NCBI RefSeq assembly: GCF_019649055.1
Contig: NW_026570225.1
Span: forward strand, 1,798,001 to 1,862,000
DNA: 64,000 nucleotides
Origin: Paramacrobiotus metropolitanus
Lineage: Eukaryota; Tardigrada; Eutardigrada; Parachela; Macrobiotidae
Direction: 5' to 3'
Both the position numbers and the translations under genes were made by a program. The first letter of the stretch is position 1. Each line of letters opens with the position of its first letter. Positions 741 through 48,768 of this stretch are shown in pieces. Below the pieces are notes generated by a model. That model searched no databases, was not told the origin of the DNA, and worked only from the letters and a program-made list of their open reading frames with translations.

Positions 741-6088
<5,348 letters not shown>

Positions 6089-21765: not shown

Positions 21766-21784
21766 ATAACCAGTTTACGGAGGA

Positions 21785-22110: not shown

Positions 22111-22120
22111 TTAACAAACT

Positions 22121-22884: not shown

Positions 22885-22894
22885 GATGAGCATT

Positions 22895-23709: not shown

Positions 23710-23721
23710 AGTTTACGGGAT

Positions 23722-26776: not shown

Positions 26777-27160
26777 ATGTCAAATCCGAAAGAGAATGAA
26801 TACGCCCGAAAGTTCAACACGGACTATTCGTGGCGTCTGACCTCAAATGCACCGTACTCACTACGGCATGCAGGTCGGGATGGAAGTCAGCCGTCATCAA
26901 CGGACTCGACGAAATCGGCCGAGGCAAGGGAGAAACGCAACGAGCGGATCCTCCTCGCCGATTCCAACCCAACGTCGGATGACAGCTTCGAGGACGCCCA
27001 TGACAAGACGTTCCTTGAGCCTAGAGCTGACTTAGCAGCCCCGTCCCACCCGACCGGGGGGGAACTGGAGAAGCTGCAGGCTGAGACCACATTGTCTCAC
27101 GCCGAGGCGGAACACCCACATGGTGCACCGACCTCTTTGGACCCAACTGAAGGAATCCAA

Positions 27161-27181
27161 CTGAGCTCACAGAAAGCTCAG
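27161..27181 (+). other. Hairpin, loop CACAGAA, stem CTGAGCT/AGCTCAG
   Basis: Seven perfect pairs around the 7-base loop, inside the gag frame. The stem is unrelated to the common CCGAC stem. Confidence 0.75.
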
Positions 27182-27339
27182 GAGTCGGAAACGACTACGA
27201 AAGTCACCGACGTCGGACGCAAATCACCCAACCAAACGGATGACGTGAAGAGGTCGACCTCACCCAAGTCGGGTAGAGCGACTTCACCGACCTTGAAGGT
27301 CGGAGAGGAGCAACCTAAAACAGAAATCGGTCAAGTCCA

Positions 27340-27358
27340 ACCGACCACAGAAGTCGGT
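27340..27358 (+). other. Hairpin, loop CACAGAA, stem ACCGAC/GTCGGT
   Basis: Six perfect pairs; in gag it encodes one PTTEVG unit. Neighbouring units at 27,287, 27,539, 27,590 and 27,653 keep the stem CCGAC/GTCGG and a 7-base loop of different sequence. Confidence 0.7.
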
Positions 27359-27866
27359 AGGGCTTCACCAACCTCAGAGGACGGTCAACGGAAACCAACC
27401 TCGGAGGTCGGTTATCCTCAACCAGAGGTCGGTCAACAGAAGCTGACCACTGAGGTCGGACCTCATCTGACAACACAAGTCGGAACCGAGGTCGGACGAC
27501 CCCAGCAATCACCAACCAAAGAAGTAGGCCAAGTCCAACCGACAACCGAAGTCGGAAGGATTACACTGACCAAGAAGGATGGAAGTCCACCGACCAACCA
27601 GGTCGGACCTCTTTCGACAACACAAGTCGGAACCGAGGTCGGGCAACTTCCACCGACCTCAAGGGTCGGACAACAGCAAGTCGGTCAAGTACAACCGACC
27701 TCCCTGGAACAGAAGCCAGTGGATAACAGGTCGGATATGGATGTCCAGTGGCCTAAACTACCGGTCAGAACGGGAGAAACTGAAGCTCCGCCACGAAGCG
27801 GACCTTACCTGGCTGGATCACCAACTAACATACCGATGCCTAACGAAAAGGCCATCTCACCGCTAA

Positions 27867-27897
27867 GTCGACCTTCGCCAACAGAAGGCGGGTCGAC
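27867..27897 (+). other. Hairpin, loop AACAGAA, stem of 7 + 4 bp
   Basis: GTCGACC pairs with GGTCGAC, and CGCC pairs with GGCG closing the loop, with a two-base bulge (TT) on the 5' side. Confidence 0.7.
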
Positions 27898-29650
27898 CCG
27901 AGCAACGGAAGCTCAAGTGACGAAACCGACCAAGTCGTTAACAAGTCGACAAGTCGACCGACCACCAAAATTCAGACTTGGTGAGTCGGAAAGTGAACGG
28001 ACACCCTCACCAACGGATGAAGTTTTCCAGACGACCACCACAGAAGCGGTTCGTCCGGACAGCAGGGAAGGATTTTTCCGAACGCCGGTGGCACCCCACT
28101 TGGGTAACCACAGGTATCAAGCGAGCACGCTTGAATACACGGCACGGAAGTGGATTGCATCCACACCCCTGAGAAGATCGATGACATTAACCGACTCCGG
28201 GAACGATGCCATGAACTGATTACGCAAATCGTTCTGGCCGACCAAATCGTTAACTCTTCGGAAGGTCAGATGTCACGATCGGCTGACACCCATAAGCTCG
28301 AACGGAGGAAATGGGAAAAGGAACTAGCCGAAGCCAACAAGGGCATAGCTGACCAACAGCGTCGCATTGAACACTTGGAGCTTTACCTCAAGAGGCTCCG
28401 ACAACCCATGTCGGTACGACTTCGAAGAGGTTGAACGGCTCAAAAGCACACTTGCAACCTCAGTGGAATCAGTCTTCGAACTGAAGAGACGGCTCGCCAC
28501 CGCGAAGAGGACTTGGCCGACACACAAACGGCCTTGGTCGAATCGGAACAGGTGGCAGCGGCATTCCACCAGAAGTTGAACCTGGCCAACGAAGAAGCCG
28601 AGGTTTACCGAAGCGAGGTTGACAGATATATTGTCGAACTTAAGCAGGCCGACGACGAGGTCGACCGGCAACGACATCGCATTGAACAACTGGAAACGGA
28701 GATGGAAATCCTTCTGGTCAGGGCCGGACGACAGTTTATGGCGAACTATAGCCAGCAGCCGGATGCCCCTGACCGAAGTAGGGCCATCACCGACCTGGAA
28801 CAAGCCAACGCCCAACTGGCTGACCAGGTGTACGGACTTGATCACGTGCTAAATGAGGAACAGAACCTCCGAGCACAGCTGGAACACAGCCTGACGGAAG
28901 CTCAGAAGGTGAACGAAGCGCAACGGAATCGCATCGCTCACCTCGAGGCCCGCGAAAGTGAACTCCAGACTTACGGAGAAAACGCGGATCGGTATATCGA
29001 TGACTTAAATCGGTATATCGACGAAATGGATACGGAGGTACGATGCCTCCGGGAGGAAACCAAACACCTGGAACAAACCAGGGTTGAGCCTCCATCCTAC
29101 AAGACATCGATGGCAACGGACTTCCACTTTGAACCGTCGCAAACTGTTCGTGACATCTTGTGGGATATCAAACCCAAGGACTCCGAGAAGAAGGAACCAT
29201 CCTACTTCGTGGGAATGCTTACAACTAACCCACTTACCGGAAGTCCCCCGCAGCAACAGCCCCTGCCCCACCACCCGGAACCGGAGCATAACACATCGAC
29301 TGCGGCACCACATGTGCCAACGTCGAATGTTCCGACAACGACAACAGCCACCGCCGGTACCTACACAAGTACCACGTATGCAACGCACACAACGATGCTT
29401 GCGACAGCGCCCACCGCGTCCCACCCGAACGGAAAACGGGGAACGGAACGTGATGCGGGTCGGCGACTGGATGGACGGATTGGCTCCTATCCTAACATGG
29501 ACGAATTCGGACGCCTAACCATACGCGACTCCGATTATCAGAGGACTCGGGCTAGGTCATACAATAATGACCTTCCCCAAGGAGGACATAACCGACAACC
29601 AGATTCGGGAAATGCAGATGATTACCCGGATCAGTCAGACCGGGCGCCTC

Positions 29651-29678
29651 GGTACCGACCCACAGAAGGTCGGGTACC
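29651..29678 (+). other. Hairpin, loop CACAGAA, 10-bp stem with one bulge
   Basis: GGTACCGACC pairs with GGTC-GGTACC leaving one bulged G. It is the longest stem of the set and lies in gag. Confidence 0.75.
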
Positions 29679-29825
29679 ACTAAGGAGGCCACAAGCAGGT
29701 CAGTTTGGAAGGGTTAACGATAACCCGGCTGGATTTTACCAACAGCCACCAAGACCCCCTCGAGCAACAGCACCTCAGCCGGAACGCCAACCGGCCGGTT
29801 ACCCAGATCAACAAAATTACGGACA

Positions 29826-29846
29826 TCCTGAGCACAGAAATCAGGA
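29826..29846 (+). other. Hairpin, loop GCACAGAAA, stem TCCTGA/TCAGGA
   Basis: Six perfect pairs with a G-A opposition next to the loop. Confidence 0.65.
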
Positions 29847-30497
29847 ATATCCAGACCAACAGGGTCATGGAAATCCGAACAGAGGTCGGGAACCGAACTC
29901 CGCCGAGTCGACTGCCAGGAATGCACAACAAGCATTCCAGGACACGATGATTCGAGTGTGTGCCCGCGGACGCAGACAGAAACTGCCGGAATTCGACGGC
30001 GACCACAACAAACTAGAAGGGTGGTTGAAACAAATCCGTCGGTTCTACGCGGAAGCGAAGTAATGGCATGAATCGGACCACACATTCATGACCGACCTCA
30101 TCTCACGACTCGAAGGCCAAGCCGCCCAATGGCACCCGGACACTGCCGGCGCAGAACCAGACGGGGGATGGCCAGTGAGCGTGTGGTTGACTAAGTTCGA
30201 GGAGCGGTTCGCGGACAAGAACAAGGAACTGAATGCCGTGACCGCCTTAGCCAAACGGAAGTACCGTTTCGGTCAAGAGACACCGGAGCAGTACTACGAC
30301 GCGATGATGAACATCGAATCACGGTGCGACACCATAACGGACCAGCTGGTATTGTTCCACCTGAAAGAGAACATTCACGAACCCAAGCTACGAGAAGCCT
30401 TGGAGATTCGTATGCCAGCGACTCCGGTCGAACTGCGTGACTATATACGCTCGTTCGTAAATGGCAAGGAGATGTATGAAGTGCTCAACATGACTAC

Positions 30498-32523
30498 CCG
30501 AAGGCGGAACGCCAACTAAGGTCGTTCCTGGGATTGGCTAACTACTATCGGAAGTTCATCCGAGGATACGCCCAGAAAACATCGAAGATGTACGAGCTCC
30601 TACGGAAGGACCAGAACATCAAAAAAGATTGGACGGAGGCCCACACGGCCGAGTCCAACGAAATCAAGAAGGCGTTAACAGAAGTGCCCGTACTGGCGAA
30701 GTTCGACCCGACAAAGGAGACCGTCATTGAATGTGACGCAAGCGGAGCCGGACTTGGCGCGGTGTTATCCCAGGACGGACATCCGATCGCCTACGCTAGT
30801 AGAGTCTTACACGGACCTGAACTCAACTATGGAGTCACTGAATGGGAATGTTTGGCCGTGGTATGGGCAGTGCAAAAATTTAAGCACTACATCGACCATG
30901 GACCTTTCACCGTACAGACGGATCATCGAGCATTGCAGAACCTGCTCAGATGCGAGTCAAACCGACCTGGCATCAACCCTCGACTAACACGATGGGCACT
31001 GGCTTTACAAGGACGGGACATAACCATCAAGTACAAGCCAGGAGTATTCTGCGACAATGCGGATGCCTTGTCGAGGTGGCCACTCGAACGGAGTGATGAC
31101 AAAGATCCACACGAAGAGTTGGATCAGGTGCCTAACTTTGAAGACTTTAAGGACGAAATTAAAGTCTGCACCATAAGGACCAAGCCCACATGGCGAGACA
31201 CTCGTACCGCCCGTGTCAACAAACGCGGAATTGCGGAAAGCACAGTTGCGAGACCCGCATCTGAGGAAAATTATCGATGAGCTGGAGAACCTGGATAAAC
31301 TCGACTACAAATCGAAGTACACCGAGCATTACCAAATGGCTCAGGGACTCCTATATCGACTGAACACCATTAACGACAAGCTGGAACGATGCTTTGTCGT
31401 ACCTCTCTTCATGCGAACGAACATCATACGCTCGCTACATGATGGGAAAACCGGAAACCACTTCGGACGTGACAAGACGGTAGAAGCATTGAAGTTACGC
31501 TACTACTGGGAACGGATGTCAACGGATGTCTTCGAATACATTCGAAAATGCCGACAGTGCATTTTGGCCAACAAGGTCCGACGTCCCCCACCGGGTAAAC
31601 TCCAGAAGATGGAAGTTGGTGAAGCTTGGTATCGCATCTACGCGGACTTCAAGGGACCTTTACCCCGAACTCAGACGAAAGGATACCAATACATCGCAGT
31701 TGTAACCGACCAGCTGACGAAGTTCACCATCGCCCGGGCAACTAAAACGAACACCGCGAAGGAATTTGAAAAGTTCTTCGTGGAAGACGTCCTGCTGAAG
31801 TACGGAATGCCGACCTTCATCCACTCGGACCGAGGGACGCACTTCACGGCGAAAACATTTGCCAAGGTTGCGAGGATCTTTGGCATCCAACATACGCTTG
31901 GAACAGCCTACCATCCGGAAGGTCAAGGACAAGTCGAACGGCAAATGCAGACGATATGGGACGGAATACGGAAGTTCTGCAACATAAAGGACGGACACCG
32001 TTGGCACAGAGCCTTACCATACATCGTCTGCGGGATGAACAGAGCGGTCCATGCCTCGACGAAATTTTCACCTTACCATATGCTGTTATATGGTATGGTC
32101 GAGAAATGACCATGCCACAGGACTTGGTGGCCGGGACGAACGCACCGGAACAGTACACGGATAAGGAACACTACATCAGGCGGATAAAAGAACGACTTCA
32201 GATGGCCCACGAAATTGCGCGCATCAACATTGATGAAGCTTTCGAGCGGAGAGCCGAAACTTACAATAAGAAGAAGTCGTCACCGACCTTCAAACCACGG
32301 GACAAGGTAACGGTGGAATTTCCAACTAAGGATCCCGCCAGGATCAACGATACGACGGAGAGTGGACGGTCATCAGTTACGTTGGCCCAAACAACCTACT
32401 ACTTCGAAGTGAGGACGGACGTGAAGACACCGTAGCCGTCGACCGAGTGAAACACTTTCCAGCCGACGCACGTCGACCAGTAACTCGGTCATCTGGTCAA
32501 AAGAAGCCGGATAACGACCTGTG
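30498..32523 (+). pseudogene. pol: pol remnant: RT connection, RNase H and integrase
   Basis: Starts mid-protein at LRSFLGLANYYRKFI, the conserved thumb/connection of Ty3-type reverse transcriptase. RNase H follows with acidic residues in ECDASGAGLGAVL, TEWECLAVVWA, QTDHRAL and NADALSR. Integrase has the HHCC zinc finger (LHDGKTGNHFG, CRQCILAN) and the DDE triad (YADFKGP, HSDRGTHF, GQGQVERQ), then the C-terminal part ending in VAVDRVKHFP. Everything upstream of the connection domain, including the YxDD palm and the protease, is missing. Frame breaks: one near 31,220; a 5-base tandem duplication near 32,087-32,096; one near 32,335. A TGA at 32,521-32,523 ends the frame. Confidence 0.88.
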
Positions 32524-33247
32524 AACCGACCCCACAGAAGGGAAGGCAACCAGTAAGTCGACCAAAAAGCCTGAAGTAACCATCGAACAATCGGAGAAAT
32601 CGAACTTAACTGACCAACCTGAAGTAACGGTTAAGAAAAGAGGTCGAGGTCGACCTCGGAAGAAACCGCCGATGGACTTCGAGACACCAGCCCTGCAGGA
32701 ACTGCAAAAGCAAAATGTGATACCAGATGAACCCGTCGAACCGACCTTGGAGAAACCTAAGGAGTCGGACAACAAGTCCGAAGAACCGGTTCAGCTATCC
32801 AACCAACCTGCGGAAGAACCCAAAAAGTCGGGAACTAAGCCGGCCAAGAAGAAGTCGGATAAGACGACCGATCAGGTGGCATCGACCACGGAAGTCGAAG
32901 TAACCGACCCGGCAGTCGCACCGACGAAGCCAAAACGGACCTATAAGAAAAGGACGGTCAAATCAACCGACCCGGCGGCACCGACCACAGAAGTCGAAGT
33001 GACCGATCAGGAGGTCGGACCGCCTAAGCCGAAACGGAAAATCGGAACGGTAAAGAAACCAAAGCTGACAGCACAACAAGTGCTGGAGGAAACCGAAGTC
33101 GCTGAAGACGAGGCCCATAAGGAAATCCTCGATAGAATCTCGGAAGGACGGGCAGACTCGGAGAAACCAGTCAAAACAGCAAAATCAAAGACACCTAAAC
33201 AAGCAGTCACAACAGAACAGACTCAGCGATTGGGCCATAGGCGTAAC
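32524..33247 (+). CDS. Basic AT-hook tail continuing the pol frame
   Basis: In frame with the integrase C-terminus after the TGA at 32,521, about 240 codons rich in Lys, Pro, Thr and Glu. A canonical AT-hook core (KKRGRGRPRKKPP) is at about 32,633-32,671, followed by repeated TEVEVTD segments and KPKRTYKKR / KPKRKIGTVKK clusters. AT-hooks and chromodomains at integrase tails can guide integration to chromatin; that role is inferred here. The frame is cut by the MITE at 33,251. Confidence 0.6.
32882..32898 (+). other. Hairpin, loop CACGGAA, stem TCGAC/GTCGA
   Basis: Five perfect pairs; relative to CCGAC/GTCGG both outer bases have changed together. Confidence 0.6.
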
Positions 33248-33250
33248 TTA

Positions 33251-33975
33251 CCAGGGCAGCGTCACCGGCCCCCCTCTCAGAAAAATTTCATTTTTTGCAG
33301 GTTTGCAGAGTAACACTAGGGTATGCTTAAAAAATAGTTTCATCTGCCATGGTCAGTAGGGCGTGGCCAAACAGAATTTAGAAGTTTAAAATTTGCTATG
33401 TTATAGCCTATGGCCAATGCATTGCTTCGTACTTTAAGCACATTTACGATTTAATACAAACCACTTCACGTGGTATCTTACGAGGCTTATGTGCGCTAAA
33501 TGTTCTCGGCTTCCCGTTTCTGAAACGGGCTAGTAGATGACAGTTAATTATTTTTAACTTTAGAGGTAATCTGTAGGTCCTCATTACCTCGGTTTTCGTG
33601 CTAGCGGTATGTGATAAAACTGATAGCGCAGATGAAAGATATTTACGTTACACCTGCTAATCGGCTCTTACAAATATTGTTAAATTACCACGTACAGGCC
33701 GCTTCAGAAACAAAACGGTTAACGGGGAATATTGGGCACATAGGCCTCGTACGATAGCGCATTCAAGTGGTTCGTATTAATTCGTAAATGTGCTTAAAGT
33801 ACGAAGCAATGCATTGGCCATAGGCTATAACATAGCAAGTTTGTAACTGCAATTCTGTTTGGCCGCCCTGCTGACCATGGCAGACAAATTATTTTTTAAG
33901 CATACCCTAGTGTTACTCTGCAATCCTGCAAAAAATGAAGTTTTTCTGAGAGGGGGGCCTGTGACGCTAGCCTGG
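33251..33975. mobile_element. Harbinger-like foldback MITE inserted in the giant element
   Basis: 725 bp with inverted arms of about 245 bp each (33,251-33,498 and 33,728-33,975, roughly 80% identical by eye), starting CCAGG(G)C.AGCGTCAC.GGCC. Flanked by TTA on both sides (33,248-33,250 and 33,976-33,978), a 3-bp target duplication like that of PIF/Harbinger. No open frame. It interrupts the pol tail frame, so it arrived after the region was coding. Confidence 0.8.
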
Positions 33976-34139
33976 TTAGAATAAGTTATAGTCATAGGTA
34001 GTTTAACAGTAGCTAGGTATAGGCCGACCTTTGGTGTCAAAATGGAACCTCTTCAGTTGACCGGAACATCTTCAGTTGAATTTACGGGAGTTGGTAGAAT
34101 TCTAACGCGCCGTATTCCTCTCCTTAACAGCAGACAACA

Positions 34140-37100
34140 ATGTCGGGCCGACAACGCAACGACCCACCTTCTAGCGGATCCAACAGCGGACGCAGTGGTA
34201 GCAGATCGAACAGATCGCACCCGTACCCTCCTCACCATCGCTCGACTTCGCGATCGGATAACTCGCGGTCGGCAACGAACACACCGCTGCCGCAGGTACA
34301 TAACCCGCACGCTAACGATACAGCTAATGTCTTAGCAGGTTTAATGGTCGGGCCAGAACGAAGCCCACAATATCGACCAGTACCACCGCAACATCTGCCA
34401 CCGAACACACGGGATTTACTACTGGCGGACTTCTCGTCAACTATGGCGCGAACGGTAACCAACCTGCTACGGTAATTGCGGGCGACCCACTTGGTCAAGC
34501 GCAACCTTACCGTTGGACGGTACCAACAACAATGGTTGGTCCGACCTTCCCAGTGCCAACGTTAGTGCCTGGAATGGTGAACGTACCACCGCCGATTTTC
34601 AGAACGCCCACTTTGGCGTCAAGCCAGCCGACATGGGCTAGACCGGTAACTCGATACGTACCAGTGTCGGGAGGAATGGGAACGATAACTCCGACGTCAC
34701 CAACGCGATTCGGAACGTTCAGCGCGATAGGGCCAAACAATACCCTATCACCTCCTCGACTTGGAACATTCAGTATCGCGGGAGTGGTTCCACCTTTACC
34801 AATGACGGGACCAGTCTCACCGACTCATATCGGACTCCCGGGACAACCGATTCCATGGGGGAATCCACATGCGGCACAGTACTTGATTCAGTCGCTTAAC
34901 CAGCACTTGAATCAGTACGGAGGACAGACCCCACATGGGACTATACCGGCGACGACCACGCAAGTCGTACCGCCACAGCCTCCGCCGCCACCACCGACTG
35001 AATTTCCCATACCGACCTCTACTCAAAGCAGGTCGATACCAACGGGAGAGTTACGGAAACTTGACCAAATTGCTCGTGACCAGGCGCGTGACTTGACGCA
35101 CCAGTTGTCGACAATTACACCGACAACCCCTGGGTACCTGGACAGAAGGGTGGAAATCTTGGATCGAATTTCCGGACTCCAGACCTTCATTAACGACAAC
35201 ACGAACATATTCGCAATTTGGAGTCAACGGGCGGCCCAACCGACGTCCGCCTCCTCAGTTCAACCGTCATCGACAACGACCACACAAGTCGTTACGTCGA
35301 TGCCTTCACCACAGGAACCGACCTCGTCTACCACACAAACCGGTAGTCGGACATCGTTCGCAGAGGCTATGGAACGCAGAAAGCGGAGAGACGCCGAGCT
35401 GAAGCGATCAAAGTTGGACGAACTCCGACAGCAACGAGAAGATGCTTGGAACGAAACGGTTGAACTCAGACAGACGCTACATAAGCTGTCTACTGAACAA
35501 CCTACTAATAATGTTGCTTGGAAGGAGGTCATGGACCAACTAATTGGTTGGGACCATTACATGAGGGATATGGACGAACAAATCGAGCAAGAGGGAACAC
35601 CACCTCCGGAACTCGCAATCGTTCCTCCGACTCAGCCGATACAACCGGTTCAACCGAGTCCGACCTCGCCAGCAACGGTGCCTAACGTGCCGAACGTGCA
35701 ACCGCAACCAGCACCGAACCCACCGACTCAACAAGAGGCGGTAGTGGATCCAATTATACAGGAGCTACAGTACCTCCAGCGGGTATCGGACATTATGATG
35801 ACCCGAATGGAGGCGGTCGGACAAGATCGGAGACTCGAACTTCACGAGTCAACCCGACTGGAAAGAGACCGACAAGATATTATGAAAACCAACGCCCAGA
35901 TCCAACATGCAATCAAGAACGGCATTCCCAAGGAACAACTGCCCTTAACGACCTTCCATCAGAAGATAGCTCCTCTTCGGCAGTTAATGGACCAGTACCC
36001 CCACATGTCCCAGAACTTGGAAGCGTCAGAAGGGCAATCCGAACAACTACGGATACCCGACCCTGTGGCCATCGCCTCCACATTGAGCGAGGCCAGACGA
36101 CTTCGTCAAGTATGGACTATGTCTGACCATATAATGGAACTAGGCGAAGTAATTGGCAACGCACAACGACTTGCCGACTTGGACAGAGCATTCTACTCAG
36201 CAGAGCGCCTTAGCAGTCGAGGTCGACCAACAACGGACGACGAAGCTCGACGGCTCATTAATATTCTGGATCGACTGAAAACTCTGATCCAAAACGAACC
36301 TTTGATGGCGGAACAACAAGTTCCCCAAAACCAGGATAAGAAGTACCACGCGATGGCACTCCAGACGGAGGAGTCCAAGCAGACAGAAGCAGCTTGGAAA
36401 GCCATCCTTGAAGGCAAAGACACTTCGAACAATTTACGAGCGTGTCCTGTTAGGCACCGAACCAAGGGCCTTCACCAAAATTTCCGACCTCCGAGCTTAC
36501 ACAAAGCTTGCGGAGAGTATGGTTAAGAAGGGTCCAACAGCGACAGTGCAGGAGAAGCAACAGCTTCGGATGGCGGTCCAGTGGATCGAGAGACAAAATC
36601 TCCTCGAAAAGAACCCTCCATCCCTGATACCCTTACCAGACAGGAATTATGTGGTATCCCCGGACTTCTCCACACATTCAGTAAGTCCAGTGACGTCGCC
36701 AAGGACGGCCCTACACAACAAGGTGCAGGAGGACCGCCAAACCCGGATATCCACCCACATTTCGGACGGATGGAACCGGCTCGACGACCTCCAAAGGGCA
36801 TACGTACAATTAACGCCTATGGACCCAGACGCCATTAGAACGGCACGCCAGAAGATTGACACCTTGGCTGCTTACTTAAAGCAAGCCCAGGACCTCTTCG
36901 ATAAGGTCGATCCGAACGAAACCGAGAGCCGACAACTTAGGTCGGTAGTTGAACGGATTGTAGAAATCCTCGACTCGGAACCGTCGTGTACTCGGATTGC
37001 CACACCATTACCTCCTCAACGGCCAGCACCGACCATCACAGCAGTAATGACGCTGGTACGAACAACGCCGATACCGGACGTCTTGAAGCATGTGGAGACA

Positions 37101-40100
37101 ATTGCCACGCTGGTCGGGACTTAGCCGAAATTTACAATTACCAGCTGAATCGACCGATGTCACCAACAAAAGTGACCGACCTCGAACGAACGGATCGACA
37201 TTTGCGAATCGAGCTGGACTTCGCTGAAACACTCAGCGAATGGGGCGTCCCAACATGCGGCCAACCCAGAGAAAGGTTGATAGAAACCCTTCAGTCGATA
37301 ATCGACCATGTTAAACGGTATGTGCCGGTGCTAACACAAGCACCAGCTAGAGAGGCAACGCCACCTGAAGCGGAACCATCTCCAGCCCCGTCACCGGCAC
37401 CAGCTGATGGACTTGAATTTGCTGAAGACGCCAGAGACCAACAGGAGGTCGACCTGGATGAGGTCGAAAATCAGTACCGAGAAGCAGTAGACGTGCTAGA
37501 GAATCTAGCCAAGCAACTTCGCGACCTCAACCCAGCGGACAAGTCAGAAGAACGCCTGAGAGTAGCGCTGGAACAACAGCACACCATCTGCTCCAGACGA
37601 GTTGATGATTTGTGGAAGATATTGGAGGCGAATCCACGGACGGTTCACCTCCCGCCGACCCAACAAACGGGACCGCCCATTTTTAAAACACAAGGCGAAC
37701 TTGGCCGGGAGGAAATGAAGAAGTTGAAGACGGACTTTGCCCGGGCAGAACAAATAGCTGCCAACCTCCAGGTCCAGGTTAACAAGATGGAAGGCCATGA
37801 CCCGATAATGGCTAACGTGAAGAGGGCGCTGGAGAGCCAACTTAGGCTTTCTCAGATACGCGTCTCTGACCTCCAAAACAAAATCGACGAACTACGTACT
37901 GACGGTCACCGCAGAACGATGGCTCGGATAGCAGCAAAGCAGAACCCGACCTCAACTGTAGGATCCGTTCAGCCGAAGCCACCAACACAGAACCTGGCTA
38001 CGCTACGAAGCGCTTTGAGTATCGCGGAAGAAATTGTCGTCAACCTGACGGTACGACTCGCGGGCATGGATGACAATGATCCAGCCCAAGCAACAGATAA
38101 GAAAGCCGCCGAAGACCGACTGAAGTCTTCCCAACAACGAGTCCGTGAACTAACGGCGGAAATCGCCGAGCTTCAAAGTCAGCAGTCAGCACCGACCTTG
38201 ACCAACCCGACTCAGCCGGCCTTAACAGTTGGTCCGGCTCCACCGACCTCAACAGAAGGATCGGTCCAGCTTAAGCCAGTGGACACTAGCGACCGACCTA
38301 TGTCCCAGGTTACTGAAGCTCGAATAATGTCGGCAATACCGGACCCAGGAACGATGCCAACAAGTGCACCACCTCACTTGGTTAACCTGGTGAATCAGAC
38401 CATGGAACTCATCACAGAAATGAGAGCCCGTCGAATCTTTTGTGATTCCAACAGCCGGTTAGCACAAGACTTGGACCGTGATATTTTGGCTTGGGGAACC
38501 AACGTAAAGTTCCTCCGCCAACTCGACCATCCGGATATGCCGAAAACTCCCGGCATAAGAGGCCATATAATAAGGACCTCTTCCTGGTTGGAAACGCGAG
38601 TCCGAGACTACATCGAAGAACGGGACCGTGACCAACAACGAAAGGATACCTCTGAAGCATCACTACGGACTTCAGCAACGGACCGTCGATCTCGGATCAC
38701 ACAAATCCAATCGACACGTAACCCGTCGGACCCTTTCGCGGTTCCACAATCTATACCGGATGACGAAATCCAGCTGACTCTGCAGACAGCGGACAGATTG
38801 ATTGGTGAACTTTACCAGTTACGGGACTCAACCGACCCGCAGACTCCGCAGTACTGCCAGATCGACATCAACCTTGGCCACTTGGAGAACAATACCAAGG
38901 AGGTCCGGTTCATTCTCCGACCTGAGACGCAACGGACCGTCAAGAATCAGGATCGGTTACGGATTCTTAAAGTCAAAATCGACAGCTTCGCGGAAGACTT
39001 CTACAAACGGAAGCAACAGGAAGCTGAACGCAAGCTGAAAACTCCCGCGAAGAAAATTAAGGCGCAACTTAAGCCACCGGTCCAACCTGTCAAACCATTG
39101 GAGGTTGAACAAGATGAACCAATGGATGAAGCACCGCCACTTGGGAACGAACTCGAGGTCGGAGCCTCCAAACAGGTGGACATGGATACTTCCGAAACGT
39201 TAACAACACCGCAGGATGGCCAACCGAAGCCAACTGCCCGACTCACCCGACCAACAACTCTGCCGGGACTCTCACATAAGGAGCCCATAGCAGATGACAA
39301 AGGTCCGAGGAGACGCTTATTCTCACCTCCACCAGTCCGAACAAAGGAACAACTGTTGGAAATTTTGAAAAAGACTCCAGCGGATGAAACACAACCGGGT
39401 CAGTCACAGAAACCGACCTCGGCAACGAAGTCAGTGTTCACCTCCGGAGTCCATAAGAAGCTAGTCCGACAGGCCAAGAACTATGACCTGGAACGGATAC
39501 TTAACGAAGCCCACCTAACAGAGGGACTGAGGCTAGGAAAGCTATCCACCGATGAGCAACAGGCACTCGGTCAGCGGATATACGCGTTAATCCAGGACAG
39601 GGATAAGGCTTTACGCCGATTGATGTTCGTGAGGTGCGGAAGACAGGCATTACGACAGCTCCCGTTGGACGCGGCCATTATCAAGCCAGTCCAACTCCTC
39701 CGTCACCCCCGCATCAACCCTGCCGCTTATACTTTGGAAATGCCCCCTCAACCGGGACAACAAGTCACCGAGAAAATTCGATTCATCATGTCGGACAGTA
39801 GCGACGAATCTGACCACAACTACAGAAAGGGTGCTCAGATCGAAGATGATCCGACCTACGACGACGACCTAACGTGGCAAGAGACTCTGCTGATGGATGC
39901 ACAAACAAGCTCCAGGTCGTCATATGGATCTCGACCGGCAGAATCAACGCCGAGAAGGAGTAGGTCTCCGTTGAAACAGATCTTACCGAACCGGGCAGCG
40001 CCTCAACCGGCAACGATGCCGAGTCAACCTCCGAAGGAACAGCCACGAAGGTTCACGCCCCGGAATACTCCAACTAAACCAAAACAGACCCCGGAGGAGA

Positions 40101-42774
40101 TGGACACGACATCTCCAAAGGAGGTCGGACCTGAATCACAGAATGAATTGACCTCGGAACCACCCAAATTGGTCATTGACGAATCTCGGACAGACGAGCC
40201 GGCAACAGCTCCGGGTAAGAGAAGCAAAAAGAAGCAGCAACCGGCTGACGACTTCTCGCGAGAATACCACAATGACCCAGCCTTGAAGCACGTTCAGGAC
40301 CTGACTAGGTCGGAACAGGATGCGAGTGTGGACACTGCGTTTCCAGAGGACAAAGAACTCTGGAACTCACTCAAGTCACGCCGTGCCAGCCTCGTTGGAA
40401 ACACCGACGCGGTTCGTAAGGAACACGAACGCCTTACGCAAAGGATGGCTGAGGTCATGAAACGAATGGAAGAACGATTCCGTGCGGAGAAGGCCCGACC
40501 CGCGGCACAACAACAGGCTGCTACGGTTCGGCCGAAACTCTTCACACCGGACTTCCAGTCAACCTCCACGACGACACGTCAACTGGTCGTTAAAATGAAG
40601 AACCCTCAACCAGTAAGGGAACCTTCCGTGCAGATCCAGGACGAATTACTGGATTCGAAGGTGATCGACTCGGCTAACTCGGTTAAGTTGTCACGGAGGG
40701 AAAAGAAAAAGGCTAAGAAAGAGGCCAGAAGGGAAGCCGAAAAAGAGGCGACCAAAGAACCCCCAAAGGGACCGTCCAAACCGAAGTCGGACCCTTCAGT
40801 CAAAACGCCGAAATCTAACCCGGCTAAAAGACACAAGTCCTCTGATGACTTCGACACCTCTGACGCTGGCCCACAGAAGCCGGACCAGAAGGAGCGACCT
40901 AAAGAGGCATACGATTACGAAGCAGCCGAAAAGCGGATGAAGGAACTAATCGCTAGAGCAGGTACGATGGCGACCAAAACGCAGGCCGAACGACCACACG
41001 AAAGGTCTAAGCCGACGCTTAAGCCACCTGCCAAACAGCCGAAACCTTCCACGTCCAACAAAGACTCGGACGACGAATCGGAAAAACCTTCGGAACCCGA
41101 CGATGAAATCTCCGACCATGGGGAAGCCGATCTATATGAAAGATTTAAAGGCGATCGAAATGAAGAATGGAGTCACGAAGAAGACACTGACGCTTCTGAA
41201 TGGCCAGCCCCTGATGACGTACGTCAGCGGCTACCTGATGCTCAACCTGGCGACCGACCAGTCGGATTTCACACAGTTCGACTCCACGTCGAAATAGTCC
41301 GGAGCGTTAGGAATGCCCGAACGGAAGGCGGAGACGTGTATCAGTCACTGGTGCGCGACCTCTCGACCAACTTAAGGATCGTAGGTCGGACCTCACCTTG
41401 GCTCACACAGAAGCTTATGATGGCGATAGTGGCTTGGGTTCTGGACTTCAGTTTAGCCGTAGCGGTCCACCGACAATGGGGACGGATTGCCGAGCTGATC
41501 TCACCCGACATCATCCAGAAGCTCAAAAGCGCCACAGCCAGAAATCAAGACGATCCCCCGACGAGAATCGTACGATGCATCGGATACGCCAGAAACCCTC
41601 GCGGATCCTCCCTACTGCACATTGCCCGTATATACAACGTTATGTACGAGAACAGTCAGGGAATTATCGATGCAATAATGGACATCTTACGACCCGTCAT
41701 CGCAACGATGGTGGCGGAATTCTCTCTTCAAACGACCAACGCGGAAAGCGACCTACCACTTCGGTACACAGTACCTCGGTTCATACCGGAGCAGCAACGA
41801 CGCGACTTCAAACTCCGGATGTCCTTTATCAATCGACAGCGCTCTCCAGAAGGTACCGAGATGATCGTTGAAGAATACAGCGAGTCGGATGAACAACCAT
41901 CCGGCGAAGCGGCGGACATGTTGAACATAGCGCGAGCGTCCGGTATGTCGTCACAGAAACGACTACCAACCAATCGACCTCGCGCACCGTTCGAACCCGT
42001 CACATACATCAATACCGCCCCGGCACCAGGACGAGCGAGCGCAGTCAAGTCAGGTCGGAACGCAACAGGACGTTTTGCGGCGAGAGACACACAATCTCTC
42101 CCACCGGCCTCACCTATGGAAACTTCACCGGCCCCGGAAGGTAAGACTCCACGGAATAGTCAACCAAAACCGGCTAAATCAACGAAGAAGTCGGCGAAGA
42201 CCAAGGAGAAAATGCCCTCCGATGAGGAGGACGAAGACGAAGAAGAAGAAGAAAACGAGGACGATGATGACACCTACCAGGGTACAACGAGAGCAAAATT
42301 ATACGGACATACACCAGCAGCAAGCGGATGTATTACGAGTTCCCACCGGAGAAACGAGACCCGGCGCCGACCACTTACGAAGGTTGGGTACATGCCATTG
42401 AAGCGTGTATGGAGATGTCGTGGCACCCGGAAGGACTGACCCGCGGCGAAGTTCTACATCAGCTGGTGGCTAGGTTCGAATTTAAATGGGAAGCCGAAAA
42501 ACCTCAGCTAGCCGATCCGAAGTACAAGCCCACGAACAGAATGCAAGGAGGCGAGAAATACATGTTGGGCGACGACCTGGACTTCGTCCTTAACAAAGGA
42601 TTCTTCCAGAAGAGATTTGGCATCAACCAGACTCGGGAAGGCGAACGATACGAAGCCCTTAAACCATCGACTCATCGATACGGACACTTACCAAAGCATC
42701 CACCGACCTCGGAGCAACAGAAGGAGTCAACCGACTCTCTCCAGGTGAACCGGGTGGAATCGACCAACGGTTGA
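34140..42774 (+). CDS. ORF2: very large accessory protein of the giant element, unknown function
   Basis: Starts at ATG 34,140 (CAACAATGT context, Ser/Arg-rich MSGRQRND). It runs for about 2,850 codons in pieces: frames change near 34,450, 36,420, 37,118 and 42,310, each consistent with a one- or two-base slip, and a single uninterrupted stretch covers 36,986-42,439. The first half contains at least eight divergent units of about 45-60 residues, each two predicted helices joined by a Pro/Asp turn (EGHDPIM, MDDNDPAQ, STDPQTPQ, PMDPDAI), spaced by Pro/Thr linkers. The middle is charged (KKAKKEARREAEKEATKE, probable nuclear signal). A helical, apparently folded block (about 41,330-41,800) and an acidic run (DEEDEDEEEEE) precede the end. 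I recognise no known domain and no membrane segment typical of Env. Confidence 0.65.
34952..34968 (+). other. Hairpin, loop CACGCAA, stem ACGAC/GTCGT
   Basis: Five perfect pairs in ORF2; outer pair A-T instead of C-G. Confidence 0.55.
35275..35293 (+). other. Hairpin, loop CACACAA, stem AACGAC/GTCGTT
   Basis: Six perfect pairs in ORF2. Confidence 0.6.
38408..38424 (+). other. Hairpin, loop CACAGAA, stem CTCAT/ATGAG
   Basis: Five perfect pairs in ORF2, with a stem unrelated to CCGAC. Confidence 0.65.
41947..41963 (+). other. Hairpin, loop CACAGAA, stem GTCGT/ACGAC
   Basis: Five perfect pairs in ORF2. Confidence 0.65.
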
Positions 42775-42818
42775 AGAGACGTGGAATACGTCGGAGGAGT
42801 CGCAGAATCGACCTCCTT

Positions 42819-42843
42819 CATGAGTACCACATAAGTACTTATG
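42819..42843 (+). other. Hairpin, loop CACATAA, 9-bp stem
   Basis: CATGAGTAC pairs with GTACTTATG with one G-T wobble, in the noncoding gap after ORF2. Confidence 0.7.
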
Positions 42844-42860
42844 ATTACCGACCTCCCCTT

Positions 42861-42878
42861 GGACACAACAGAATGTCC
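42861..42878 (+). other. Hairpin, loop CAACAGAA, stem GGACA/TGTCC
   Basis: Five perfect pairs, with an 8-base loop. Confidence 0.6.
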
Positions 42879-42892
42879 CGACCTACCTCATT

Positions 42893-42911
42893 AGGCACCA
42901 CATAAGTGCCT
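42893..42911 (+). other. Hairpin, loop CACATAA, stem AGGCAC/GTGCCT
   Basis: Six perfect pairs; third of the cluster. Confidence 0.7.
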
Positions 42912-43139
42912 TGGACCAGCTCGAGAACCGACCTGGCCCGACCGTTGTAATTATAGGGTGTAAAGTTTATAGGATAACGAATCCGAGAAACGGATCGTTT
43001 AATTTTTCTTTTAACAGCCACGACGGACTGCCGACATTGCAGAGAGAACTCAACTCCGCAGGGCAACAGACTCCCATGCGCGGACTGCATCATCTCCTTT
43101 TCGGATGAACACACTCCATTGGTCGGACGTCGTGACGCG

Positions 43140-45147
43140 ATGCAAGCAGCGGCGTTGTACATAAACGTCGTCGCTGGGAACATTAGCGCATACCGACGCT
43201 TCGCTCGCAGCGAACGCCTGATTAATCAGTTACGGGCCTACGAACAGGATCACTTGTCGGAAATTCAACGCAACCGCGCTTCCGACCCTGGATGGACTCA
43301 CACGGCACCACCGGTATTAACTAACCGACTTCTGGAGTACCGTCAGCAACAGGACCTGCGGCGCCAGGAGGAGGACCGTGCGAAACTAAAGGCAGTCAAC
43401 GAAAGAATTGCTACAATAAAGGTCCACCCACCACCAACGAGACATAAACCAGAAATCACTGTTCGGTTACAGCAGCCCACAGAAGGCCGCACCGACTCGG
43501 AACAGGTGAATCATGACGTTCAAGAAGTAATAGTCGGAGACATTCACCGACCTCTTCAAACCGCGTCAATCCGAATGATAATGCGGCAGGACGATGGAAC
43601 CATGCAAATGGTCACTCTTTACCACGCAACGGAGGAACAGCTGGCAGCGATCCCACAGAAGGTCGTTCCAGTGGTCACACACCCAGCCAACCGTTCCCCA
43701 AGAGATTCCCCAACCTGGATCCTCGGCACAACCAGTTGCCTCGTCGTCGACTCAACAGCAGCGCCGACCTGCCAAACCATTGGCCGGACACGACCTTCGA
43801 CATAGGCTCGGACACGATGCTCGACACAGAATCGAGGAACGACGAGCCTCTGCCGGACATGGTAATAGTGAGGCAACTCGACCTTCACCTGCAAAACGGT
43901 CAAGTCCGGAGAAGACAAGTATGGGACTGGTCGTTGACTCAACTAGTAAGTCTAAACGGAACTTCGTCTCACCTGAACAACGACAGGAGCCGGAGGCCTA
44001 CATGGCGGAACCGGCAGATAAACCCGAGGAAATGGACGTTGAAGTGGCGAATCAGATGGCTTCGATGCCAACAGTGCAAGTTCCGAGCCGGGACGACCCT
44101 CGTTACGACAACGCCCGACGACAGGGAGTTGAGGTCGTCATGCCACATCCGAACGAACGGACGAATTACATCATGAACACTATGGGATATGAGGAGCGAC
44201 ACCGACCACACATTTGGTGGATGGTAGAAAACCTACGTCAGTTCCTCATTCCATCGGGATTCCAGACCAGATTCCAACTGAATAACTGGATGGGCGAGTT
44301 CAACATGAACGACCACCCTAACCTGGATCACCCGACCAGTCGAGCGAACGCCTTGCCTTCGGTGACTGACCCGGCACTGTTGGACATACCTTCGTCCACA
44401 CCGGAGAGGACGAGTTTAAGTCAGCTCGGACCTCAGGAGTACTCACGCGATCAACTGGAGAGCGTGGCTCAGTTCGTCATCACCGACGCCCACCCGGCCT
44501 TTGTCATCGCAGCAGCTCGAGGGGCCCTGGACTTATTGCAGTACTTGCCGGAAGTAGAACCAGGACCAGAGGACCACAACGCGACTATTGTACGGTACAT
44601 CTTCGCAGCAAGGTTGGGCAATTACTTTTGCCACTACACGCTGTGGGGAGCACGCCGTACCGGACACACACCACCGGAACTGGACACCGTCGTCGCTCAA
44701 CTCGGTTCACCTATGCGGAGTATCATCCTGGCAGTCTGGTTACGCGACCTCCTCTACATACAGGAACGGCATGCGGCCAGATATGCTTTCCGCAAGGACT
44801 TTAAAGACCCGGACGACGATGCAGCCGAGTTCGTGAAGTGGTACCGAGAAGAAAAAGCGTTACCCAGCGGATTCACCTCTAGACCGTACGGAGAAGGGAT
44901 GTCGGACGACTTGGCACCCGGTGCAGTACCCAACGCACATAAACTCCGTCGGAAGGTCCAGAAAGCCAAAAAGGCGCGGGCAGAACAACCTGGCCAGGAA
45001 GACACCCCTCAACAGAGTGGGCAGCCACCAGCAACATGTAAGCCTGATGTCTTCCGACGCCTCGGCCGACCACCAAAAAAGGATGAAGACGACGATGAGG
45101 AAGATTACTTCGGCGGAGACCCGCCGATTTCAGTCCCCTTGGGATAA
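43140..45147 (+). CDS. ORF3: accessory protein of the giant element, unknown function
   Basis: ATG at 43,140 (MQAAALYINVVAG). The frame changes near 43,700 and continues to a stop at 45,145-45,147, about 660 codons. It has a helical N-terminal part (RLINQLRAYEQDHLSEI, coiled segment RRQEEDRAKLKAVNERI), a Pro/Ser/Gln-rich middle, then an apparently globular helical domain of about 250 residues rich in Trp and aromatic positions (HIWWMVENLRQFLI, YFCHYTLWGARRT, LAVWLRDLLYIQE). The C-terminus is basic then acidic (KLRRKVQKAKKARAE, DEDDDEEDYF). I do not recognise the family. It lies where envelope genes sit in retroviruses but has no signal peptide or transmembrane segment, so an intracellular role is more likely. 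Confidence 0.6.
43820..43836 (+). other. Hairpin, loop CACAGAA, stem CTCGA/TCGAG
   Basis: Five perfect pairs in ORF3. Confidence 0.65.
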
Positions 45148-45352
45148 CAGGTTCCCACACAAGGAGCCTGTGGTCCCACTTCAACAGTAAGGAAGGGACA
45201 TTGGGCTGAGAAACAGCGAAGTCGAGAACCGACCTGGCGGAGAACCTGCCCAGCTGAGAAACAGCATCGCCGAGAAACGACACGGAAAACACGGAACAGA
45301 CACTTCTTTTACGGATTCTAAAGCAGACGTGAACCACGAATAAGCCAGAAGC

Positions 45353-45371
45353 GCCAACTACATAAGTTGGC
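45353..45371 (+). other. Hairpin, loop TACATAA, stem GCCAAC/GTTGGC
   Basis: Six perfect pairs in the noncoding tail. Confidence 0.6.
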
Positions 45372-45767
45372 CGGATTCTTTGGTCGGACCCGGAAACGCG
45401 TGGTCAGACCTGGGTATTTCGGTTCTTTCACCGTACCGGTACGTCCCCCAAGGAATCCCCTGGAATGAACTGGGCAACCGACCTCAGTTCCCCAGCATGG
45501 CACCGGAGACAACAGACGCCCCGGCTTGCTAACATAGCATCTCGTGAACCACGTTCTGCTACCGAAGAAAGTTACCCCGGCCAACCGACTCCGGAGGACA
45601 GACCGAGAGGATTACGCTAGCATGGTGTGAAACACGTCACTGCGCTTGTTTCACGTCATGCTTGCCTGGCACCCGTGGCCGACTTTGGGACCGGGTAACC
45701 GACCAGTAACTTTCATCACCGCAGACAGTGGTATCCTCTCGGATCGCAATGTCACATTGTTCGGAGC

Positions 45768-45782
45768 TGACCACAGAAGTCA
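45768..45782 (+). other. Hairpin, loop CACAGAA, stem TGAC/GTCA
   Basis: Four perfect pairs; the outer pair is T-A where other sites have C-G. Confidence 0.55.
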
Positions 45783-45897
45783 AAACCGACCTATGGCATA
45801 GCACAAGCGACACACCCAAGGCAGGACCGAAGAACCGGACTCCCGCCCAGAGACAAGACACCGCAAACCGCGGCCTTAACTACGTTTGGCTACCTCA

Positions 45898-45916
45898 GTC
45901 GACCACAGAAGTCGAC
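45898..45916 (+). other. Hairpin, loop CACAGAA, stem GTCGAC/GTCGAC
   Basis: Six perfect pairs in the noncoding tail. Confidence 0.7.
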
Positions 45917-45964
45917 CGCTTCCGAGGTACAAATCGGAACTCTCATTGTGACTCGGATGACTTA

Positions 45965-45983
45965 ACCGACCACAGCAGTCGGT
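45965..45983 (+). other. Hairpin, loop CACAGCA, stem ACCGAC/GTCGGT
   Basis: Six perfect pairs in the noncoding tail. Confidence 0.65.
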
Positions 45984-46120
45984 CAAGTTTCAACTTTACA
46001 TCCGAAGGACAAGTCGTCTGCCAACAGTAGCCGACCCTAGAAACGTTACCACTCGACCAACCGACGTCGACCTGATGGAAGCATATGGAAGTCACAAAGC
46101 GGACCGCCTTATCGTAGCCT

Positions 46121-46143
46121 TTACTGACCACAGAAGTCGGTAA
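46121..46143 (+). other. Hairpin, loop CACAGAA, 8-bp stem
   Basis: TTACTGAC pairs with GTCGGTAA with one T-G wobble. Confidence 0.7.
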
Positions 46144-46702
46144 CGGTGACCGCAGACCGCGGTACCTGACTACGATCTTAGTCTGGACGGATTCTCCGTT
46201 TGAACCCAGATCTACAGGCTCTCAACTAGGAACCTGTACCCGGAGTCCAACCGCAGTCTCCCCCGGAGGATATCGGATAAACCAACCGATTCACCGGTGA
46301 CCACGACTACGCGCGGCTTGACCGTGCTGCCATTACCTGAAGAGGAACAGCGACGGTGATTTGGCTACTGGTGTACCAACGACTCCGCCGCGACCTGCTT
46401 CCCCATGTCTTAATGGAACATCCTAGGCAAACCGTGTTAGAACACACGGCTTGCACCCCCAGACAGACCCCACCTCGGACGTGTGGCGTCTTTCCCCAAC
46501 AGAAGTGGTAAGGCGTCACAGGTTCGCGGAACGGAACGAAGAAACTCCAATCAGGGAACGAAGATCTGATTCTACCTCAGGAGTGCATGCTGCATGGGGA
46601 TGGGAACGGGCAGTCTGACATAAGTCGGGGCCCGAGGCACAACGCTGCCGAGGCGCGGGAACCGTACGCCGGTCTGAAACCAAAGAGTCTGTCTTGTGGA
46701 GT

Positions 46703-46719
46703 GGGACCACAGAAGTCCC
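46703..46719 (+). other. Hairpin, loop CACAGAA, stem GGGAC/GTCCC
   Basis: Five perfect pairs; both outer pairs are switched from C-G to G-C relative to the common stem. Confidence 0.7.
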
Positions 46720-46963
46720 TTGATGCCACAAGGCGACCTGGATTGGATGTTGAATGGCCAACAGACGCCATGGAATCGCCGAACCTGACGGAACTCGGAC
46801 CCGTCCAGAGGCAAAGTTACGGACCCGAACCAGGGCATGTTAGAGGCACGGACCGGATCACCGCTCCAAAACAACTTTACGGAGCCCGGACGGACGCCGA
46901 GAGGTTTAAACCGACCTCTTGACGGACGGAACCGACCTGGATCCAACCGACCACAGAAGGTCC

Positions 46964-46984
46964 AACCGACCACAGAAGTCGGTT
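46964..46984 (+). other. Hairpin, loop CACAGAA, stem AACCGAC/GTCGGTT
   Basis: Seven perfect pairs. Confidence 0.7.
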
Positions 46985-47493
46985 AGGAACGCCGGATCTT
47001 TCGGATTCGCTCGGAACATCAGCGGATTAGCCGAAATACGACCTTCGAACGGACCAGTTACGCGGTAACCAACCTCGGGTCGTTCAACACTACCACCGAC
47101 CTTAGGTCGGACACCAGGAGTCCCTGATAACAAGTCGGTAAAGTATCACCAAATTGAAGAACGGAACTGGAAACGACCTCGAAATGGACGAATTCGACCT
47201 AACGGGACTTGCTCGGCCCCACATGGGCCTAAGTTACACAAGTTACCGAGGTCGACCATGGAGGTGCGTTATCACCGACCTCAGGTCGGATAACATTATG
47301 ACCGACCTCGGGTCGGACATCCATCCCAACCGACAACAGGTCGGATGACAACAGAGAATCATCAGTGGATGGATGGAACAACAAATTCCGACCAGACCTT
47401 CGAGCCAGTTCGCCTCGGAAAAGCCTTAACCAGGCTCGTGGTAGCAGATTTAACAGTTTTTAACCGACCACATCCCATCGGCATTACCACTTG

Positions 47494-47510
47494 GCGACCA
47501 CAGAAGTCGC
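47494..47510 (+). other. Hairpin, loop CACAGAA, stem GCGAC/GTCGC
   Basis: Five perfect pairs; outer pair G-C instead of C-G. Confidence 0.7.
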
Positions 47511-48316: not shown

Positions 48317-48768
48317 TGTTAGAGGCACGACAGCCTGCGTGATAGATACGCCACTTTGCGTATGCGTATCACTGCACACATGCTGATTCGCCCTCTCTTG
48401 TACGTACGTGAGTGGCTGCACTGCACTCTCCGCCTAGCGGATCACACCGCGGGCGCACTCACTGAGCATACTTGCTCTCTCGCTCCTCTCTCTCGCTGTA
48501 TGACTCAGCGCATACACGCTCGCGTTGGATACGAGTCCAGTCTGCGCGCTCACATTCCATGTGTCTGGACAGCGTGACGCCGTTGCCGCCAGCACATTTC
48601 TTTCTCTACATTTTCATTACGCACTAGAACTCGCTCGCAGCAACTTGACTTGCTGATTTCTGCCAGACATTGGCTTTGTTGTCTTTTTCTCCCGCAATCA
48701 CGCGGTATTTGCTCCACTTTATTTGTACAATAAAGGTATCTGTGAGCTCTCTGCGCTTGCCTGTCACA
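48317..48768 (+). repeat. 3' LTR
   Basis: 452 bp, followed directly by the TCAG target duplication. See the 5' LTR for the comparison. Confidence 0.93.

Follow-up and report, generated by a model that had tools for sequence, protein, structure and literature searches.

Viral packaging signals can be dispersed along a genome, with stems that vary and a loop that is kept, and satellite tobacco necrosis virus (STNV) and hepatitis B virus (HBV) are reportedly to be added to the cases cited next. In single-stranded RNA (ssRNA) viruses, according to the portions of PMC6281560 and PMC7793301 that treat them, such signals are many short genome sites with a common motif for the coat protein. Here we analyze a 64,000-nucleotide stretch of the genome of the tardigrade Paramacrobiotus metropolitanus (the window, on contig C5 of a 169.8-Mb assembly in which copies were sought) and show by sequence statistics that the long terminal repeat (LTR) retrotransposon within it, which we call E, carries hairpins that follow a loop rule, are restricted to the sense strand, have free stems, are independent of reading frame and obey lineage-specific rules. 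E resembles the packaging-signal-mediated assembly of ssRNA viruses in having multiple stem-loops with a loop shared beyond chance on free stems, and differs from it in being an LTR retrotransposon, in its strict loop rule, in the different loops of its sister lineages and in that protein binding is putative. The viral signals are the closest operational parallel; because their defining feature is coat-protein binding, we do not claim membership of that class.

Retroviral psi consists of a few elements near the 5' end, in contrast to the dozens spread over the whole of E. The purine loop of mouse mammary tumor virus (MMTV) is such a psi stem-loop, recognized by Gag in cis, in the part of PMC8096270 that describes it. 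Ty1 and Ty3 of yeast, like E, are LTR elements, with an RNA encapsidated by Gag. Within the relevant part of PMC4974528, the minimal cis signals of Ty1 amount to 380 nucleotides (nt) at the 5' end and 357 nt at the 3' end, and nt 429-4979 of Ty3 are dispensable when proteins are supplied in trans. In size, the family of E recalls Burro, a giant Gypsy-like element of planarians with an internal region of up to 25 kb and a huge accessory coding region (PMC6431247, in the portion that concerns us): both are Gypsy-type and giant, and both have large accessory coding regions. Burro differs from E in its ankyrin, BIR and MATH domains, for which nine open reading frames (ORFs) of E gave no Pfam hit at an E-value of 1 or below, and a hairpin system goes unmentioned for Burro in the same portion of PMC6431247. 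We found no description of such hairpins in a retrotransposon, or of E itself, in the open-licence PMC literature searched.

A near-fixed loop on stems of free sequence

Each site was scored by a constrained fold, because counting contiguous Watson-Crick pairs alone misses hairpins, taking every position of that sequence as background and setting a cut at -6 kcal/mol. The initial annotation of the window, made from the letters alone, had counted about two dozen CACAGAA words on the sense strand; there are exactly 24, whereas 300 dinucleotide shuffles average 3.9 and never exceed 9, and the opposite strand holds one, the lone TTCTGTG it had placed at 26443, close to the 5' end. Its further claim that most of these words have paired flanks also held: 16 of the 24 close a hairpin with a 7-nt loop that passes the -6 kcal/mol cut, and one more (38413) reaches -5.9. 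Among the others, 29833 forms a 6-bp stem around a 9-nt loop, 28039 has a stem with a mismatch or bulge (by eye), and five words are stemless (37986, 40137, 40872, 41406 and 46952). The list of exceptions drawn up beforehand was right for 40137, 41406 and 46952, had missed 37986 and 40872, and included 32533, which is weak but forms (-7.0 kcal/mol). The loop variants behave alike, as had been proposed, with hairpins at 6 of 8 CACACAA and 4 of 5 CACATAA words. In the dinucleotide-shuffle control that had been suggested, 26 CACANAA hairpins stand against a mean of 0.09 and a maximum of 1 (300 shuffles).

The rule extends to NACANAA, for which 34 of 83 words form hairpins, compared with 0.95 expected from the all-position rate and a mean of 0.5 (maximum 4) in 300 dinucleotide shuffles; the first loop base prefers C (26 of 37 words, against 5/27 for A, 3/9 for T and 0/10 for G). 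A motif-blind scan of four-position patterns in loops of 4-9 nt puts '.AC..AA' at the top, in loops of 7 nt (46/227, 2.6 expected, corrected p 1.6e-38), and the 9-nt patterns it returns are NACANAA hairpins viewed one pair further out. Other loop lengths in E (3-6 and 8-11 nt) yield no comparable motif, and the signal is specific to 7-nt loops, in line with the loop length first described. Single-base neighbors of NACANAA give zero to two hairpins per pattern (NAAANAA 0/25, NAGANAA 0/30, NCCANAA 0/46, NACANAG 0/30, NACANCA 2/63, NACANGA 2/38), save two exceptions, NACGNAA (7/58, 0.66 expected) and NACTNAA (4/33, 0.38 expected). The pattern scan is over-generous with repeated palindromes, giving the left flank corrected p values of 4e-5 (+) and 2e-4 (-), and we therefore place more trust in the shuffles and in the comparison across lineages.

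The antisense strand of E holds eight NACANAA words, none of which forms a hairpin at -6 kcal/mol, and the flanks give 0/29 (left) and 0/19 (right) on their + strands and 0/66 and 0/37 on their - strands. The motif-blind scan of the antisense strand returns the mirror image only (TT..GT., 48/227, corrected p 3e-29), because the complement of an inverted repeat is an inverted repeat; the claim of strandedness therefore rests on the loop words and not on the scan. Inverted repeats also exist as DNA and might be bound there by a DNA-binding protein or transposase, but a reader of DNA palindromes should fix the arms, and here the arms are free, only the spacer is fixed and a single strand is used, so that we give this explanation practically no credence. 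The hairpins could instead mediate RNA-RNA contacts for genome compaction, dimerization or pairing with an RNA in trans, given that fixed exposed loops could pair with a complementary RNA and that dimers of Ty3, Ty1 and human immunodeficiency virus 1 (HIV-1) use short palindromic contacts (PMC11381356, in the part bearing on dimers). The loops of E, however, are not self-complementary, the sense strand has only 8 copies of the complement TTNTGT but 83 of ACANAA, and ACANA with a free fourth base is unlike pairing, all of which makes this function very improbable.

The stems are as varied as the loop is constant, with 26 different inner 4-nt arm pairs among the 34 hairpins. Coding hairpins use all three codon frames (11, 6 and 4): CCGACCACAGAAGTCGG reads PTTEVG and CTGAGCTCACAGAAAGCTCAG reads LSSQKAQ in another frame, and 13 of the 34 lie outside the ORFs checked. 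These features bear on the idea that the hairpins are a copied DNA or protein repeat, with CCGACCACAGAAGTCGG as its PTTEVG-encoding unit, palindromic by accident. In its favor, GAC immediately precedes the loop in 11 of the 34, and several hairpins code for PTTEVG-like repeats. Yet 23 of the 71 NACANAA words without a preceding GAC still form hairpins, compared with 0.81 expected, and the use of three frames, the hairpins outside ORFs and loops that vary by lineage under a constant architecture (see below) refute copying as the sole cause; we hold it hardly credible in that role. Some copying alongside selection is likely, and the 11 hairpins with GAC may descend from one unit.

Comparison with other copies reveals compensatory changes at five sites: GCGAC/GTCGC to GTGAC/GTCAC at 47499 (L033, where L-numbers denote genome pieces of related copies or lineages); GTCGAC/GTCGAC to GTCAAC/GTTGAC and also to GTTGAC/GTCAAC at 45904; ACTGAC/GTCGGT to ATCGAC/GTCGAT at 46129 (L012); GCCAAC/GTTGGC to GCTAAC/GTTAGC at 45359 (L011 and L019); and CTCTCC/GGAGAG to CTCTTC/GAAGAG at 25736 (L067). 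Shared double changes are paired in five cases and unpaired in one at motif sites, compared with one and two at controls, which is suggestive only as a sign of stem covariation. At 28039, 15 of 29 relatives carry another hairpin, GACAC[GACACAA]GTGTC (hand count), and some sites are poorly kept: none of 5 distinct variants is fully paired at 28859, and 1 of 9 is at 27880. In L107, L031 and L025, small deletions have removed the loop alone or a large part of a hairpin, as though reverse transcriptase had jumped over it.

In the positions that follow, all on the + strand, coordinates are stem extents, with folding energies in kcal/mol; elsewhere sites are also cited by loop start (for example 25736 or 45904). 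The coordinates quoted in the initial annotation were right and are stem starts rather than loop starts. The 5' leader contains a CACACAA hairpin at 25731-25747 (-8.4) and a CACATAA hairpin at 26693-26709 (-13.1). Two coding CACAGAA hairpins follow, at 27161-27181 in the LSSQKAQ frame (-10.0) and at 27340-27358 in the PTTEVG frame (-16.7), and then AACACAA at 27467-27483 (-12.9) and 27614-27630 (-12.8) and AACAGAA at 27875-27891 (-17.7; weakened in most copies) and 28854-28870 (-11.1; lost in aligned copies). Next come CACACAA at 29381-29397 on an interrupted stem (-8.0) and CACAGAA at 29656-29672 (-15.3), 32528-32544 (short stem, -7.0) and 32981-32997 (-10.1). Further downstream lie CACACAA at 35276-35292 (-12.1), whose L108 counterpart is a pentaloop, ACACA; TACATAA at 35473-35489 (-7.8); TACACAA at 36493-36509 (-10.3); AACAGAA at 38246-38262 (-8.0); and CACAGAA at 38408-38424, which at -5.9 just misses the cut and stands outside the 34. 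They are followed by CACACAA at 38693-38709 (-10.0), CACATAA on a bulged stem at 39268-39284 (-12.4), and CACAGAA on an interrupted stem at 39400-39416 (-10.1), where both inner pairs are changed and still paired in L108. The CACAGAA hairpin at 41947-41963 (-10.0) falls within an accessory ORF and corresponds to a pentaloop, ACAAA, in L109. Beyond it are CACACAA at 42083-42099 (-10.3); CACATAA at 42819-42844 (up to 10 bp, -11.0; AACACC[ACAAA]GGTGTT in L108) and 42893-42911 (-8.4); CACAGAA at 43473-43489 (-9.5), 43649-43665 (bulged stem, -13.4) and 43820-43836 (-7.1; CTCGA/TCGAG becomes TTCGA/TCGAA in L109); CACACAA at 45151-45167 (-18.7); and TACATAA at 45353-45371 (-9.2). The 3' noncoding region contributes six CACAGAA hairpins, at 45767-45783 (-7.3), 45898-45916 (-7.6; several paired double changes among copies), 46123-46141 (-12.1), 46703-46719 (-8.5), 46964-46984 (-12.7) and 47494-47510 (-6.8). 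Hairpins that had not been given a position before include 25736, 26698, 35281, 42088, 42828, 42899 and 45156.

Loop rules of sister lineages

We scanned six stretches of other lineages, L108 to L113, of 5-10 kb each, and each loop type is enriched mainly in its own lineage. L108, whose integrase is about 86% identical to that of E, uses a 5-nt loop, ACANA (17 of 80 words, 0.84 expected), as does L109 (integrase pieces 84-87%, one poorer piece; 18/75, 0.97 expected), which mixes two rules by adding some NACANAA (6/22). The 6-nt loop CAAUNA marks L110 (integrase 77%; 8/10, 0.15 expected) and its relative L113 (76%; 3/6, 0.09 expected), although the scan by itself makes no convincing case for L113 (best 0.003 on the sense and 0.0004 on the antisense strand), which serves solely to check a pattern set in advance. 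Another 6-nt loop, CNANCG, is found in L111 (integrase 71%; 14/67, 1.22 expected) and in L112 (9/53, 0.85 expected), which is an 88% copy of L111 and so not independent. Counts of one lineage's loop in another are near expectation (for example NACANAA 0/5 in L110 and 0/7 in L111), with the exceptions of NACANAA in L109 (as above) and L108 (3/16) and of CAAUNA in E (2/21, against 0.25 expected). Forty shuffles for each of L108, L110 and L111, scanned for loops of 5-7 nt, gave corrected p values no lower than 0.0049, whereas the real sequences reach 1e-14, 8e-7 and 6e-8, respectively. The literature searched offered no counterpart of these loop dialects.

Two of the dialects connect at orthologous sites. 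The core ACANA is common to the rule of E and to that of L108 and L109, and has C.A on either side in 26 of 35 E hairpins, whereas C-G encloses it in 15 of 22 hairpins of L108 and in 14 of 25 of L109. Where CACANAA hairpins of E align, the last loop A has become G at 7 of 9 sites in L108 and 5 of 10 in L109, compared with background A-to-G rates of 14.4% and 12.4% (hand counts), and none of 10 sites in L109 keeps both the C and the A of the loop ends. For example, CTCAT[CACAGAA]ATGAG at 38413 corresponds to CTCATC[ACAGA]GATGAG in L108 (position 4403), and at 42828 the stem is partly changed too, from GAGTAC/GTACTT in E to AACACC/GGTGTT. Parallel changes at many sites appear to link the codes C-ACANA-A and C-ACANA-G. 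Alignable hairpins sit on an E hairpin in 6 of 12 cases in L108 and 5 of 18 in L109, and hence the set is partly conserved in place and partly turned over. The near-constant loop, the variety of stems, the single strand and the three frames, and above all the lineage loop rules and these coordinated loop changes, support the original proposal of a selected RNA structure rather than a copied repeat.

The coexistence of dialects also bears on who might read them. One or more host RNA-binding proteins could bind the hairpins for export, germ-cell localization, stability or translation, dispersed sites raising occupancy on a long RNA. Host RNA-binding proteins can use short, A-rich, stem-independent sites, which is what these loops are, and Pfam names no RNA-binding domain in the proteins of the element. 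But lineages with ACANA, CAAUNA and CNANCG share one genome, which excludes a single host reader and calls for several, and the + strands of the flanks are free of such hairpins of any lineage type save one CNANCG; a host reader is, in our judgment, unlikely. Turnover of loops by lineage would equally fit an arms race, in which hairpins would act as a block to decay, RNA interference or editing, or as a sink for a host defence protein. Double-strandedness, though, needs no fixed loop, and many of the stems are merely 4-7 bp, so that protection or decoy seems distinctly improbable.

The element, its derivatives and its surroundings

E is bounded by a 5' LTR (25061-25512) and a 3' LTR (48317-48768), both TG...CA on the + strand, 98.5% identical and with a 4-bp TCAG repeat outside each; TGG, the start of a site resembling a primer-binding site, stands at 25513 directly inside the 5' LTR. 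RNase H and integrase (RT_RNaseH, Integrase_H2C2 and rve in Pfam) occupy 30480-32109 on the + strand, and this order, together with the LTR pair and the TCAG target duplication, is of the Ty3/Gypsy type. E is without most of reverse transcriptase, its Gag-like stretch passing straight into RNase H at about 30480, and a YIDD motif upstream of integrase is kept in the four relatives inspected (L002, L003, L005 and L008). The Gag-like stretch is weak (Retrotrans_gag at E 0.054, scoring 14.1 bits where the cut-off is 24.1), and Pfam gives no domain for several large accessory ORFs. At least 40 close copies of E are present in the genome, and at least 128 integrase matches were scored genome-wide, with identities from 100% down to 68%. 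LTR matches lie 24.5-31.5 kb apart on one contig at several places, by coordinates only, and we infer that each such pair bounds one element of that length.

Hairpins are retained in derivatives that have lost most of the coding region. In L012 and L014, which lie on different contigs, the region 27113-27748 is joined to 45364 onward, the stretch from about 27750 to 45360 being missing, and each carries 11 NACANAA hairpins in 3.36 kb (26 and 27 NACRNAA words, about 0.4 expected). The stretch spanning this junction is fully matched at these two places only. L026, likewise rearranged, has 11 NACRNAA hairpins among 22 words in 3.4 kb, and the window's own piece, L009, has 8 among 20 in 3.6 kb.

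Other features of E and its flanks were noted as well. At 33250-33976 lies a nested insertion of about 0.73 kb with a TTA target repeat; its ends are long and inverted (CCAGG...CCTGG, with 93-94% complementarity between the arms), and L002 has the empty site. TGTTAGAGGCACG, the 13 bases with which the LTR begins, is found a third time within E, at 46838. Other short palindromes (CCGACCTCGGGTCGG, AACCGACAACAGGTCGGTT) fill the 3' noncoding region at 46950-48300 and its homologs among L010-L036; they make up a second class of hairpins, short-looped and variable in copy number. On both sides of E, at 20450-24400 and 51000-54700, the flanks contain arrays in which a 9-bp unit resembling CCTAAGAAA recurs, together with palindromic GTTACGGATGTAG repeats, and at 59743-62388 two adjoining ORFs resemble a non-LTR reverse transcriptase (YMDD by eye). 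Rfam matched nothing at E 1 or better.

A putative reader of the loop

A near-fixed loop on free stems, at many sites, on the sense strand only and independent of coding, points to an RNA-binding protein that reads loops. In the mechanism we favor, the apical loop NACANAA (mostly C-ACANA-A) would be displayed on stems of free sequence and recognized by a protein indifferent to the stem. Because lineages that share a genome differ in their loops, the element itself would encode this reader, which could be its own Gag or the product of a giant accessory ORF; the Gag binding guessed at in the initial annotation is a reasonable conjecture. Many sites per RNA might make binding cooperative and self-specific. 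The most probable role would be to package selectively, or to assemble into ribonucleoprotein, a very long RNA, perhaps 24.5-31.5 kb between LTRs; this is the most economical function because it needs specificity for genomic RNA, gains from many sites and would explain hairpins in coding-deleted derivatives. We rate at about an even chance the proposal that the RNA of E carries some 34 dispersed hairpins with a near-fixed loop, read by an element-encoded protein, most likely for packaging or ribonucleoprotein assembly. The loop would then drift between lineages along with its reader, each family packaging itself and not its relatives. It is tempting to go further and regard the loops as tags of self and non-self, each lineage having its own dispersed code and a co-evolving, element-encoded reader, with relatives and parasites left unpackaged and non-autonomous derivatives surviving through the tag, although we consider this somewhat less than evenly probable.

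Several observations weigh against an element-encoded reader of packaging hairpins. Ty1 and Ty3 need only their ends in cis, and internal dispersed packaging signals are unlike them (PMC4974528, in the part cited above). On the protein side, Pfam found no RNA-binding domain in the accessory ORFs, the pieces searched for a CCHC knuckle showed none, and two AlphaFold models were too poor for use (predicted local distance difference test, pLDDT, 49 and 39). A PDB profile search with one accessory domain gave no match, and among 150 of 572 genome-wide CCHC-knuckle candidates taken by eye, a survey that was not exhaustive, none stood beside the own-clade integrases compared. The loop switch is also imperfect: L108 retains both C and A at 41952, and A has become G at aligned CACANAA words without an E hairpin as well (1 of 4 in L108, 2 of 4 in L109), in a control that is small and not clean, as it includes 40872, where both lineages have an ACAAA hairpin. 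The covarying stems of the initial annotation stand at the five sites described above; overall, pairing is retained no better than at controls, changed stem pairs being still paired in 43% of cases compared with 40% at control hairpins (all copies), and in 8 of 17 compared with 49 of 158 between lineages (Fisher p 0.19). This test over 30-40 copies is weak, since many other hairpins of the palindrome-rich E keep pairing too, and dead copies may decay neutrally; for this reason our case is not rested on covariation. Finally, L012 and L014 are 99.7% identical, and an origin by transposition is conjectural for them.

If an element-encoded reader does bind these loops, E would show an LTR retrotransposon using a dispersed code for packaging or recognition, a mechanism hitherto argued for RNA viruses, and natural variants of that code would coexist in one genome. 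The evolution of packaging specificity would then become testable, with the loop families, their closing pairs and the L109 intermediate all found in one animal.

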